DNA of 34,541 bases from Gammaproteobacteria bacterium (GTDB lineage Bacteria; Pseudomonadota; Gammaproteobacteria; Steroidobacterales; Steroidobacteraceae): contig JAJPKM010000039.1 of assembly GCA_021323735.1 (NCBI GenBank), positions 1-34,541 of the forward strand. The letters are read 5' to 3'. Below the pieces are notes generated by a model. That model was given only the letters and a program-made list of their open reading frames with translations. It was not told where the DNA came from and did not search any database. Made by a program: the position numbers and the translations under genes. Within the stretch, counting starts at the first letter, position 1, and the number at the start of each line of letters is the position of its first letter. Below are positions 5,078-31,600 of the stretch, in pieces.

Positions 5078-5236
5078 CGCGCGGCGCGGCCCCCGCAGAA
5101 CCGCGATATCCATCACAAGAGGCGCTGGATATTGTCAATTTTCAGGCATTTATGCGTGTGCACTGCACGCCGTGCCGCAAATTCTTGTGTTGAATTGCGA
5201 CGCTCGTCAAAGCTGGTTATCGGGGATTCCATCACA

Positions 5237-7540
5237 TTGATCCGAGTCCCCAACCCAGATTCCGCGCGCAGGAAGCAGGCCTCTCAAGTGCTCGACATCA
5301 AGTCTCACGCCGTCGAAATTGCCGCCGCGGACGCGTCGTTCGACCCGTATGCGCGTCTGCTGCGCATGCTCATGCCCAGCCTGCGCGGTGTGGTTATCCA
5401 CGATGGCTATGCGAACTTGCAATGGACCAGCGATGACTGCGACTTGAGCGATGAACCGGAAGTTATCAACGAGGCCATCGCCAACGCCCTGTCGGACAAG
5501 GCGGAATTTCCGGGGGTCGCCAGGACGATCGATGCGGATCGGGTCGTCTATTCATTCGGCGTGCGTGGCGAGCACATTGAACTCTTGGGCCTCGTCAGCC
5601 TGGTGGTCCGCCTGTCGGGAACTCAAATCGAGCCGCGGCCGCTGCAGACGGTGCGCCAGCTCGTGCAACCCGCCCTGGAGTGCCTGCGCCGCGAATTGGC
5701 GCTGCGCGCGAAATTAGGTTCCAGCGAGCGGGACCTGAACATCAAAGAGCGCGATCTCGAGCTCATGATGGAAATTTCCTCCAACCAGGCAGCCGACAGC
5801 GATGCGGACGAATTCTCACAAATCCTCAAAACCGGGCTCGACCGCATGGGCTGTGCCCTGGCCGCGCTTTGGGTGCCGGACAAGAACATCTCGGTGTCCA
5901 TGACGCGCAGCGGTGCACCCATGTCCCCGGAGGCGCTGCAGCGGGCACAACACCATTTGACGGCGTGGATGCAGATGCAACAGCGCACCATCGTCATCAA
6001 TCACATCTCCAAGATCGCGACCGACGTGGCCGCGCCGTACAAGATACTGGCCTGTCCGATTCGGCATCATTCGGAGCGCGTCATGGGCGTGCTGGCCTTG
6101 TTCAATCCACCCAGTGCGGCGGATTTCGACGTGCAGCAAACCCGGGTCGCCGAGATGCTGGCGAAGCGATCCACCAGCATCATCCAAGCGCAGTACGACA
6201 CCAGCACGGGACTCATGACACGGCAGGCCTTCGAACGCCAGGCCTGCAACATCTTGGCAGCGACGGGGACTTCCGGATCGCACATCATTTTGTATCTTGA
6301 CATCGATCGCCTGCATGTCATCAACGAAACCTTCGGCATGCACATCGGGGACGACGTCATCAGCAGCGTGGCGGACCGCATGGCCAAGACGCTGCCGGCG
6401 GAGGCGCTGTCCGCTCGTATCTCCGGAGATCGGCTCGCCGCGCTCATCCCGAACGCCACCATGGAATCGGCGGCGGTCATCGCCGAGAACATCCGCGCTG
6501 CCGCCGAAGGCATCGTGCCTCGCGCCGGCCAGGGTTCATTCGAAGTCTCGGTTTGTTTGGGCGTCGCGCCCATCGGTCGCTCCGACAGTTCGCTCGCGCA
6601 TGCCTTGGCCACGGCCGAGATCGCCTGCAAGGCGGCGAAGGACCGCGGCCGAAATCGCGTGGAAATGTTTCAGGATTCCGACCAAAGCATCATCCGGCGG
6701 CACACCGACATCCTCGTGATCGGCCAATTGCGCGAGGCGCTCGATTCCGACGGCTTCCGTCTGGATGCGCAGCCCATCCTGCCGCTGCGCGGCAACTTCG
6801 GACGGCCGCGCTTCGAGCTGCTGATCCGGATGCTCGGAAAACACGGCGAAATGATCCCACCCGCCAAGTTTCTCTCCTCCGCCGAGCGCTACCAACTCAT
6901 GCCGACGATCGACCGCTGGGTGGTGCGCCGCGCCTGTGAGCTGCTCGGCGCCTACAGTGCTTCCGTGGGCGAGGAGTTTTCACGGTTTGCCGTCAATCTC
7001 TCCGGGCAATCGCTTCAGGATGAAGATTTCTTGGATTTCGTGGTGGAACAGCTCAAGGCAAGCAGCTTGCCGCCCGGCGTCCTGTGCTTCGAATTGACGG
7101 AAACCGCGACCATCGGCAACCTCGAAAAAGCGCAGGTGTTCATGCGCACGCTGCAGGAACTGGGCTGCCAGTTCGCGCTCGATGACTTCGGCACAGGGGT
7201 CAGCTCGCTGGCCTACCTGAAGGACTTGTCGGTCAATTACATCAAAATCGACGGCAGCTTCGTGCGCGATGCCGTGACCAACGCCCGCTCCGAATCGATG
7301 ATCAAGGCCATCGCTCAGCTGGCCAAAGTCATGTGCATGGAGACGATCGCGGAATACGTGGAGACCGACGTGCTGCGGGTACGCATGGCAGATCTTGGCG
7401 TCGATTACGGACAGGGATTCGCCATGGGCAAAGCCCAACCTTTGGAGAATCTGTTGGAAGAGCTGGCCTTCTACGAAGCCACCGTCAGCAACTGGGCGAC
7501 GACTGAAACCGCGACCGAACGCGTCATCGCGCAGCACTGA
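5237..7540 (+). CDS. GAF-GGDEF-EAL protein, probable c-di-GMP phosphodiesterase
   Basis: About 767 residues. The order is an N-terminal uncharacterised region (1-170), a GAF-like sensor domain (about 180-310), a GGDEF domain (about 315-480) and an EAL domain (about 495-745). The cyclase signature is degraded: the GGDEF position reads SGDRL at 396-400, so diguanylate cyclase activity is doubtful. The EAL domain keeps ELLIR at about 527-531, an Asn in FAVNLSG, the Glu in FELTET, DDFGTG at 649-654, the Lys of YIKIDGSF and the Glu of ETIAEYVET, so c-di-GMP hydrolysis looks intact. The start is uncertain. I favour TTG at 5237, with GGGGA ten bases upstream; the frame is open back to a TTG at 5132, and GTG at 5288 is another option. 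No membrane segment, so cytoplasmic. Confidence 0.9.
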   Translation: MIRVPNPDSARRKQASQVLDIKSHAVEIAAADASFDPYARLLRMLMPSLRGVVIHDGYANLQWTSDDCDLSDEPEVINEAIANALSDKAEFPGVARTIDADRVVYSFGVRGEHIELLGLVSLVVRLSGTQIEPRPLQTVRQLVQPALECLRRELALRAKLGSSERDLNIKERDLELMMEISSNQAADSDADEFSQILKTGLDRMGCALAALWVPDKNISVSMTRSGAPMSPEALQRAQHHLTAWMQMQQRTIVINHISKIATDVAAPYKILACPIRHHSERVMGVLALFNPPSAADFDVQQTRVAEMLAKRSTSIIQAQYDTSTGLMTRQAFERQACNILAATGTSGSHIILYLDIDRLHVINETFGMHIGDDVISSVADRMAKTLPAEALSARISGDRLAALIPNATMESAAVIAENIRAAAEGIVPRAGQGSFEVSVCLGVAPIGRSDSSLAHALATAEIACKAAKDRGRNRVEMFQDSDQSIIRRHTDILVIGQLREALDSDGFRLDAQPILPLRGNFGRPRFELLIRMLGKHGEMIPPAKFLSSAERYQLMPTIDRWVVRRACELLGAYSASVGEEFSRFAVNLSGQSLQDEDFLDFVVEQLKASSLPPGVLCFELTETATIGNLEKAQVFMRTLQELGCQFALDDFGTGVSSLAYLKDLSVNYIKIDGSFVRDAVTNARSESMIKAIAQLAKVMCMETIAEYVETDVLRVRMADLGVDYGQGFAMGKAQPLENLLEELAFYEATVSNWATTETATERVIAQH

Positions 7541-29928: not shown

Positions 29929-31275
29929 TCAGCCCAACAAGTACGCAAAATAGCTGTTGCGCAGCCGGTTCACAGGATCGGTGCGCTGGCGCAGCGCGCG
30001 GAACAGTTTGGCGCGTTCACCGAAGGATTTGGCCACGTGTTCAGGCTGCAAGGCGCGCGTCTGATTGAACGTAGGCGTGCCGCCGTGCGAGGAGGCAAAT
30101 TCGTTGAAGTCGATGAGGAAGTCATCCCAGCCCTGTTCGCCGCTCGATGAGGGCTCCAGGGTGAACATCGGGCCTGAGTAGCTCGCGCTAAAGAGAGAAC
30201 CCCGGTCCTGATGCAGCCTGGCGGCGCCGCTCACCACGTTGCCGCGGTAGCGATGCTTCTTGTAATACGACTTGCAGAATGCGAAGTAGGCGCCGAGCAG
30301 CGCCGGATAGTCGGCTTGCGGGAAAGCCCAGAGGCTGTAGGTGTGACGCGCCTTCCAGGCCTCCTTCGGCATGTCGCGCATCCATTCGTGCGAGTACATC
30401 ATGACATCGCGGCTGCCGCCGGAGAGGGCACGGTGCATGCCCGAGAGCACGGCGGCGCGCAATCCGCGAGCCGCGAGGACGCTGCCCACCGTCGAGCCGA
30501 ACGCAGGCAGTACGTTGCGCATCACCGATTGTTTTATTTGCCAGATACCGGAGCGGGTGATCGAGGCGGATTCGGCCGGCGTGCGCCGTTCGATGGTGAT
30601 TCGGTCGTGAAAGGGCGATACATGCAGGCGCAGCGCGCCCGGCGCGCCGATCAAGGCCGGATATCGCGCGCCGAATTCCTTCAGGTTCAGCACCTGGTAG
30701 TCGATTTTGACGGGGAGCATGGGGCGCACGCGTACCACGACCTCGTGCACCAGCCCAAGCAGGCCGAAACTCGAACGCAGCACGCGCATCAAGTCGCGGT
30801 CCCGATCGGTGACGGTCATGTGCTTGCCCTGCGGCGTAACCATTTTTATTTCGCAGATGCACGATGACAACTGCGACATGCCGTCGGCGTACGAGGCCTG
30901 CGGCAGGGTGGTCATCGCCATTGCGCCCAGCGAAATCTGGCCCATTTCGGGCGTCAGCGGCAGTTCCTGCCCGCGTTCGGCGAGCGCTTTGACCAAGGTG
31001 CTCACGCGCACCCCCGCCTGCGCCCGGACGCTGTTTTCTCCAAATTCCAGGATCCTGTCGAGCCCCGCGGTGTCCACCGTGGTTCCGCCGTCCCCGCCGA
31101 CACAGCGAGTCTGCGAATAATCCGCCCCGACCATTCGAATCGGGCTGGGATAGCTTTTGGGTTTGGACAGGAGGCTGGGCAGGTCTTCGAAGCGCTTCAA
31201 GCGCAGGACAAGCCGGGGCCGGCGATAGATGCCTGATGAGTCCGCCCCGCGCGGATCGCTGACTTTATTGACCAT
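29929..31275 (-). CDS. FAD-binding oxidoreductase (ALO-type FAD-linked oxidase)
   Basis: 448 residues. The N-terminal half is a PCMH-type FAD domain: PIRMVGADYSQTRCVGGDGG, TTVDTAGLDRILEF, VRAQAGVRVSTLVKAL, and SLGAMAMTTLPQASYADGMS. The second half matches the D-arabinono-1,4-lactone-oxidase type C-terminal domain and ends PVNRLRNSYFAYLLG. The position where covalent homologues have His in GxxHS is Tyr (GADYS), so FAD is probably bound non-covalently. The substrate is unknown; sugar lactones or alditols are common in the family. ATG at 31275 has GGGGGGA five bases upstream and lies beyond the riboswitch; a GTG at 31377 would start inside it. Expression is probably under c-di-GMP control (see the leader). 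Confidence 0.88.
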   Translation of the reverse strand: MVNKVSDPRGADSSGIYRRPRLVLRLKRFEDLPSLLSKPKSYPSPIRMVGADYSQTRCVGGDGGTTVDTAGLDRILEFGENSVRAQAGVRVSTLVKALAERGQELPLTPEMGQISLGAMAMTTLPQASYADGMSQLSSCICEIKMVTPQGKHMTVTDRDRDLMRVLRSSFGLLGLVHEVVVRVRPMLPVKIDYQVLNLKEFGARYPALIGAPGALRLHVSPFHDRITIERRTPAESASITRSGIWQIKQSVMRNVLPAFGSTVGSVLAARGLRAAVLSGMHRALSGGSRDVMMYSHEWMRDMPKEAWKARHTYSLWAFPQADYPALLGAYFAFCKSYYKKHRYRGNVVSGAARLHQDRGSLFSASYSGPMFTLEPSSSGEQGWDDFLIDFNEFASSHGGTPTFNQTRALQPEHVAKSFGERAKLFRALRQRTDPVNRLRNSYFAYLLG

Positions 31276-31280
31276 GTGCT

Positions 31281-31329
31281 TCCCCCCGGAAGACGGCAAA
31301 ACGCTTGAATAAAGCTGGCTGTCGGGGGG
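31281..31329 (-). promoter_or_regulatory. Possible riboswitch expression platform sequestering the ribosome binding site
   Basis: On the minus strand CCCCCCG (31329-31323) is perfectly complementary to CGGGGGG (31288-31282), which includes the Shine-Dalgarno sequence of the oxidase gene. A rival local hairpin CTTCC-GGGG-GGAAG also covers the ribosome binding site. Neither ends in a U-run, which favours translational rather than transcriptional control. Two smaller hairpins (GCGCT/AGCGC and AAACC/GGTTT) lie between this and the aptamer. Confidence 0.6.
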
Positions 31330-31377
31330 CACAAAACCGGGCGGTTTCGTATGCGCTTCAAGCGCTAGAAGATTCAC

Positions 31378-31470
31378 TGGCGACCCCGCTATCGTCAGGC
31401 TTCCTCGCGGGAAGCCCCTTAGACCGGTGGTTTTGCGTCCCCACCTTTCGGCGGGTTTGCCCTTAAACAG
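31378..31470 (-). ncRNA. Cyclic di-GMP-I (GEMM-I) riboswitch aptamer
   Basis: Read on the minus strand, the sequence follows the GEMM-I consensus and the Vibrio Vc2 aptamer segment by segment: GGGCAAACC, a six-pair stem closed by a GAAA tetraloop, GGACGCAAA, then ACC-ACC-GGT in place of GCC-UCC-GGC (a compensated change), CTAA, a seven-pair hairpin GGCTTCC/GGAAGCC in the variable P3 arm, and ATAGCGGGGT. The GAAA loop and the CTAA region form the tetraloop-receptor contact of this class. It lies about 100 bases upstream of the FAD-linked oxidase ATG, in the same orientation. Confidence 0.93.
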
Positions 31471-31478
31471 CTGCCCTT

Positions 31479-31508
31479 ACTATGCGATGCCAACCGAAGC
31501 TTTGTAAA
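31479..31508 (-). promoter_or_regulatory. Candidate sigma70 promoter of the riboswitch leader
   Basis: On the minus strand TTTACA (31508-31503) and CATAGT (31484-31479) are separated by 18 bp, giving 5/6 and 4/6 matches. The start would fall near 31472, just before the aptamer. Confidence 0.55.
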
Positions 31509-31600
31509 GGGCTATTTCAGGGGCACTTAAGGGGCCATTTGAGGGGCATTTAAGGAGGGTATTCGAGGGTATTCGAGGGTATTTGAGTAGGTATTGAGGA
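31509..31600. repeat. Phased 10-12-bp repeat array
   Basis: Eight or nine G-runs on the plus strand, starting at 509, 520, 531, 543, 554/557, 567, 577, 590 and 598 (add 31000), are separated by AT-rich steps such as CATTTAA and TATTCGA. The period drifts from 11-12 bp to exactly 10 bp (ATTCGAGGGT units). It abuts the -35 of the riboswitch promoter and ends about 40 bp from the antiporter stop. Confidence 0.85.

Follow-up and report, generated by a model that had tools for sequence, protein, structure and literature searches.

Class I c-di-GMP riboswitches (GEMM-I; Rfam RF01051) usually control genes for motility, chemotaxis and adherence, according to PMC6366702. Class I switches conserve an adenine at pocket position 47, which is stacked between the two guanines (PMC9049102), and the cGAMP riboswitch (GEMM-Ib) is recognized by G20A together with A14 (PMC6274999); the latter paper supplies the corresponding positions of the cGAMP-switch junction, and both papers helped us to map the pocket positions. 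Here we compare these systems with a locus in a stretch of 34,541 nucleotides, called the window below, where a c-di-GMP-I aptamer precedes the gene of an FAD-linked oxidoreductase. The pocket positions G20, A47 and C92 are given in what we take to be the Vc2 numbering.

The aptamer and its class

We scanned the whole window with cmscan at the Rfam gathering thresholds, and one RNA match was obtained, on the minus strand at 31470-31375. The program prints RF03167 (c-di-GMP-I-GGC) for this site, with 61.6 bits (gathering score 59, E = 2.2e-12), and omits one lower-ranked match of the clan from its output. The original prediction had placed a GEMM-I aptamer at 31378-31470, which proved right to within 3 bases, and the RF01051 covariance-model run that it proposed as a check gave 70.5 bits at 31471-31376 of the minus strand (gathering score 35, E = 1.3e-13 for the genome). 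RF03167 matched in 53 of 60 genomes, the window's own included, and RF01051 in 28 of 30, and neither matched in 14 control genomes. The pocket bases of the aptamer (31375-31470, minus strand) are canonical: G20 is G31461, A47 is A31434 and C92 is C31380, and none of the three varied among 20 own-family leaders or among 79 relatives from the order.

The "GGC" in the name of RF03167, reportedly coined by Weinberg et al. in 2017, presumably stands for G20-G47-C92. Where the consensus of this family reads GACGCG, the window reads GACGCA and thus has A instead of G at position 47. The same A occurred at all 35 aptamer loci, the window's own included, three of which (L013, L015, L016) were missed by the script motif and were read by eye. 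The base at position 47 makes the canonical c-di-GMP family a better fit than the GGC sub-model, and RF01051 also gives more bits than RF03167. We therefore rejected the GGC assignment, and consider it highly improbable that the aptamer belongs to that variant and senses a signal other than c-di-GMP, although cmscan reports the site under RF03167 and the gathering score of that family is passed. Caution is also due with other RF03167 hits, as those inspected in this order carry the canonical c-di-GMP pocket base. The cGAMP riboswitch was rejected as well, since it needs A at position 20, where the window has G31461 and 79/79 relatives have G. The site in the window is a real c-di-GMP-I (GEMM-I) aptamer.

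The stems were assessed in an alignment of 79 aptamers from the order (A4), which was fitted to the model and hence leans towards the model structure, with the P1 pairs added by hand. Within these limits, the paired cells were standard in 95.8%, and 113 cells had changed on both sides, compared to 36.5 in shuffles. Double changes occurred at 12 of the 20 aptamer pairs (as many in 3/500 shuffles), and the covariation score of 0.351 was reached by none of 500 shuffles. By this sequence comparison, the modelled P1, P2 and P3 stems are backed by covariation. The predicted compensated pair ACC/GGT is real and lies at the end of P3, with an outer pair that is GU in 44, GC in 20 and AU in 15 of the 79 relatives.

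The genome has 38 GGDEF and three PilZ matches. One GGDEF domain (6188-6658), carried by an open reading frame at 5132-7540, shares the window with the riboswitch. The other four c-di-GMP-I aptamers of the genome precede pilM, the gene of a GH71 protein whose start resembles that of a lipoprotein, that of an AhpC/TSA-type redoxin and that of a 165-aa protein without a Pfam match. Four own-genus genomes (L033, L027, L029, L030) have a c-di-GMP-I aptamer before the same protein, assigned as PilM by Pfam for L033 and by likeness for the other three. A multi-copy GEMM-I-like RNA of 106-117 bases was seen at loci L160-L179, L013 and L016 (genomes G042, G045, G058, G038 and G039), mostly ahead of secreted-looking proteins. 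Its long P3 extension (GGGTCCTCGCTTCCTCCG...GAAGGACCC) gives, by eye, an impression of strong conservation. In 8/22 rows, all of family f10, C-G replaces the ligand-contacting pair G21-C46; two rows represent the same place. The multi-copy RNA with the long P3 extension could be a distinct subclass.

The oxidase and its linkage to the aptamer

The gene downstream of the aptamer (29929-31275, minus strand) encodes a 448-aa protein whose sole Pfam match is FAD_binding_4 (PF01565; 52.1 bits, cut-off 26.4, E = 7e-14). The original prediction of an "ALO-type FAD oxidase" was borne out in the FAD linkage, but "ALO-type" is loose: TIGR01679 (bact_FAD_ox) gave 70.7 bits, and its curated cut-off of 292.25 was not reached. 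An AlphaFold model built from three sequences had a mean pLDDT of 31.2. Residue 53 is Tyr (DYS) in the window enzyme and His (QHS) in the f10 homologues L060 and L061. As we take this His position to be the covalent flavin site in related oxidases, covalent and non-covalent flavin forms may coexist within the family.

We searched the own genus, the order and the class for the oxidase and its aptamer. Of the 23 own-genus genomes, 21 have an orthologue, accompanied in 19 by a same-strand aptamer upstream, and a sister genus (G024) has both oxidase and aptamer. The two exceptions in the own genus kept the oxidase without a detected aptamer: G001 (L051) has lost the aptamer and kept the promoter-like TTTGACA...CATAGT, and in G018 (L048) about the last 20 bases of the aptamer are left. 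The oxidase family occurred in 106 of 296 genomes of the order (E 1e-20). From these matches we took 88 loci of genera other than the own one and G024 in which the match extends close to the N-terminus, start-less fragments and weak paralogues being excluded, and a c-di-GMP-I aptamer lay on the gene's strand at 79 of the 88. Four of these 79 (G038, G042, G050, G056) were among the 31 aptamers that built model R1 and match it by construction; the same four were also found by Rfam. The aptamer ended before the protein match in every one of the 79, at a distance of at most 246 bases. The nine loci without a detected aptamer comprised five of family f10 together with G039, G115, G244 and G261, and the upstream sequence among them spanned only 150 bases in G039 and 491 in G070. 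A class-wide draw of 369 genomes showed the oxidase family in four (E 1e-60), three of them within the order; the fourth, G633, had no aptamer in the 4.7 kb examined.

A FastTree tree of 11 of the 22 own-family orthologues, the 88 order rows and G633 placed every family with at least two rows on one branch. Six changes of aptamer state occurred among the 100 rows, and several long branches were flagged. Judged from these protein sequences, the oxidase tree follows the families. The gene neighbours differ among the loci inspected (L063, L064 and L066), so that the riboswitch with the oxidase looks like a conserved unit. The aptamer-oxidase pairing recurs in many genera of one gammaproteobacterial order and is no single-genome quirk, and the FAD oxidase proposed as riboswitch target stood up to this wider comparison. 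Conservation of the pair across many genera suggests that c-di-GMP control of the enzyme matters to these bacteria, and the pair offers a direct way into an FAD enzyme family whose annotation is poor. In PMC7082342, Woeseiales are placed next to the Steroidobacter clade; if the order is this Steroidobacter-Woeseia lineage, it includes bacteria that the same paper describes as common in marine sediments.

The leader and the probable direction of switching

A sigma70-like promoter, predicted to lie upstream of the aptamer, was found by a promoter scan at 31508-31479 of the minus strand (TTTACA at 31508-31503, CATAGT at 31484-31479, spacer 18), and its columns were invariant or at least 90% conserved in an alignment of 20 leaders. 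Short imperfect tandem repeats, some with units of 11/23 bases and others with a 10-base unit (GAGGGTATTC, 3.3 copies), lie at 31505-31587 between a Kef-type antiporter gene and the promoter and reach into the -35 element; they were not seen by eye in related leaders. The oxidase most likely starts at the ATG at 31275-31273, which is conserved in the leaders, whereas a GTG at 31377 was rejected as the start since it overlaps the aptamer.

Several parts of the leader are complementary to one another. GCUGU at the 5' end of the aptamer (31471-31467) is a P1 strand and has an alternative pairing with ACAGC at 31322-31318 (anti-P1). The latter belongs to the putative switching strand CCCCCCGACAGC (31329-31318), marked out by conservation and motif count, which joins the anti-P1 sequence to an anti-SD C-run at 31329-31324 and is the best conserved stretch between aptamer and SD in the 20 leaders. 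The conserved ribosome binding site CUUCCGGGGGGAAG (31292-31279) has an SD-like G-run at 31287-31282 and, in the folds, a local hairpin CUUCC-GGGG-GGAAG at 31292-31279 that covers the site. CCCCCCG (31329-31323) and CGGGGGG (31288-31282, minus strand) were thus present where the original prediction had located them, and the hairpin is the rival structure that it had named. No terminator-like site was found in a scan of the leader, in agreement with a predicted lack of a U-run, and terminator-based control was rejected on this ground.

We consider it likely that the locus is a canonical c-di-GMP class I riboswitch with its own promoter, whose ligand turns off translation of the FAD-linked oxidoreductase; the identity of the ligand, the OFF direction and the effect on translation are what we infer. 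The leader would be transcribed from its own promoter. When c-di-GMP is scarce, GCUGU...GGG at the RNA's 5' end would pair with the downstream strand CCCCCCGACAGC; this would break the aptamer and keep the G-rich ribosome site accessible. Binding of c-di-GMP would close P1 and set the downstream strand free to pair with GGGGGG, and translation would stop. The oxidase would most likely be off in the sessile, high c-di-GMP state.

Two pairings appeared in the ligand-free fold of the window leader, one between GCUGUU and GACAGC, the other between GGGC and GCCC where the C-run begins. With up to 15 nt of coding sequence at 37 °C, the anti-P1 pairing probability was 0.97 to 0.98 ligand-free and 0 with the aptamer imposed, and the freed strand then paired with the G-run at 0.96 to 1.00. 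The probability of an unpaired SD fell from 0.32-0.62 to 0.01 or less on imposing the aptamer (3 to 15 nt of coding sequence), and none of 40 linker shuffles reached the drop from 0.62 to 0.01. These OFF-type folds were obtained with four 5' ends at 37 °C and with one 5' end at 25 and 15 °C. The prediction depends on the 3' end chosen, however. With 33 nt of coding sequence, the anti-P1 probability was 0.19 and the sign was reversed (SD unpaired 0.14 free, 0.42 with the aptamer), and with 63 nt it was 0.07 and the SD was closed in both states (0.05 free, 0.01 with the aptamer). The aptamer-constrained fold proposed earlier as a check hence sealed the SD with up to 15 nt of coding sequence but reversed at 33 nt.

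Across the 20 leaders, the mean drop in SD-unpaired probability was 0.20, compared to 0.05 with shuffled linkers (standard deviation 0.04, maximum 0.13, 40 sets). A drop of more than 0.05 was seen in 11 leaders and none gained more than about 0.01; the change was 0.02 or less in nine (G017, G003, G007, G002, G024, G006, G019, G015 and G022), and only five (G000, G020, G011, G004 and G005) exceeded 95% or more of their individual shuffles. The C-run with the motif AC[A/G]G occurred in 18/20 linkers against a mean of 1.3/20 in mononucleotide-shuffled ones, a count that ignores kinship. In G004, which is without the motif, the strand GGAACGGC by eye complements GCUGUUC at the aptamer end (one G-U) and also CCGUUCC beside the SD. 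Outside the genus, we folded the 63 of 79 leaders whose start lies at least 40 nt past the aptamer and in which an SD-like core was found. With six shuffles each, 19 dropped by more than 0.05, five gained, and the mean drop was 0.067 compared to 0.031 in the shuffles, a weak two-state folding signal.

The ribosome sites of the relatives also bear on the direction. A script applied to the 79 leaders left 65 with the SD in the linker or unassigned. Seven relatives carry GGAG at the aptamer's 3' end, in the P1-forming part, with the start codon following within a few bases; seven others have AUG directly after P1 and GGAG inside P3. An eighth case of an SD at the aptamer end (L092), missed by the script, was seen by eye; the start of L089 is uncertain, and those of L104 and L135 are TTG and GTG. 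As ligand binding should close a ribosome site placed inside the aptamer or at the 3' end of it, the placement in these 14 relatives suggests OFF. The same aptamer and target might work with the opposite sign, with the ligand as an activator of translation that might, for instance, hold the P1 strand out of an inhibitory fold. Class I switches are known in both directions, and the Vibrio cholerae pair responds in opposite ways (PMC6366702). An ON switch would also fit the window fold that includes 33 nt of coding sequence and the five of 63 leaders that gain SD access, but we regard it as rather unlikely: the shorter window folds give OFF, none of the 20 leaders makes an appreciable gain, and SDs that lie inside the aptamer or where it ends could hardly be opened by the ligand. 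The models taken together thus favour an OFF switch, a direction on which the original prediction had not committed itself.

Column covariation of the anti-SD/SD helix was not above controls (alignment A1), perhaps because the C-run shifts register, and the full-leader fold was not unusually stable (z of -1.29). The former result would suit a remnant aptamer retained by descent near the gene with its switching lost, and the losses in G001 and G018 show that aptamers do decay here. However, the pocket bases are invariant in 99 sequences and compensatory change in the stems is strong, which points to lasting selection and makes a remnant quite improbable. Beyond the riboswitch in the window, we tentatively envisage, as a possibility short of an even chance, an order-wide, vertically inherited c-di-GMP regulon centred on a private FAD oxidase family and repressed at the ribosome, in which the aptamer serves as the ribosome site or start-codon context in several lineages. 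Its output would be new, perhaps surface-sugar or lipid-linked sugar oxidation that is off in biofilms. If this is true, one RNA would be both sensor and initiation region in several lineages, and the oxidase would represent a novel type of c-di-GMP output. Several wirings of one aptamer class to the ribosome site are on view in these leaders.

Comparison with known systems

The riboswitch class is known, whereas no description of an aptamer-FAD oxidase pairing was found in the literature searched, which did not cover the founding GEMM paper. Xylitol oxidase, L-galactono-lactone dehydrogenase and DprE1, which we take to be VAO-type FAD enzymes, likewise have an N-terminal FAD-binding domain and gave PDB sequence matches with E of 7e-8 to 7e-4. 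However, these matches are confined to residues 19-233 of the 448 in the window enzyme, and the NCBIfam scores are far below the cut-offs. The window aptamer scores above the gathering threshold of c-di-GMP-I-GGC but differs from it at position 47 (A, not G). It presumably shares its fold with the cGAMP (GEMM-Ib) riboswitch, from which it differs by G instead of A at position 20. The V. cholerae class I pair is said in PMC6366702 not to control termination, and the window leader is likewise without a terminator. With c-di-GMP-I (RF01051), the locus has in common the sequence and structure model, the G20/A47/C92 pocket and the position in a 5' leader; it differs from the GEMM-I systems in its target, an FAD-linked oxidoreductase, and 14 relatives differ further in that the aptamer contains the ribosome site or has it at the 3' end.
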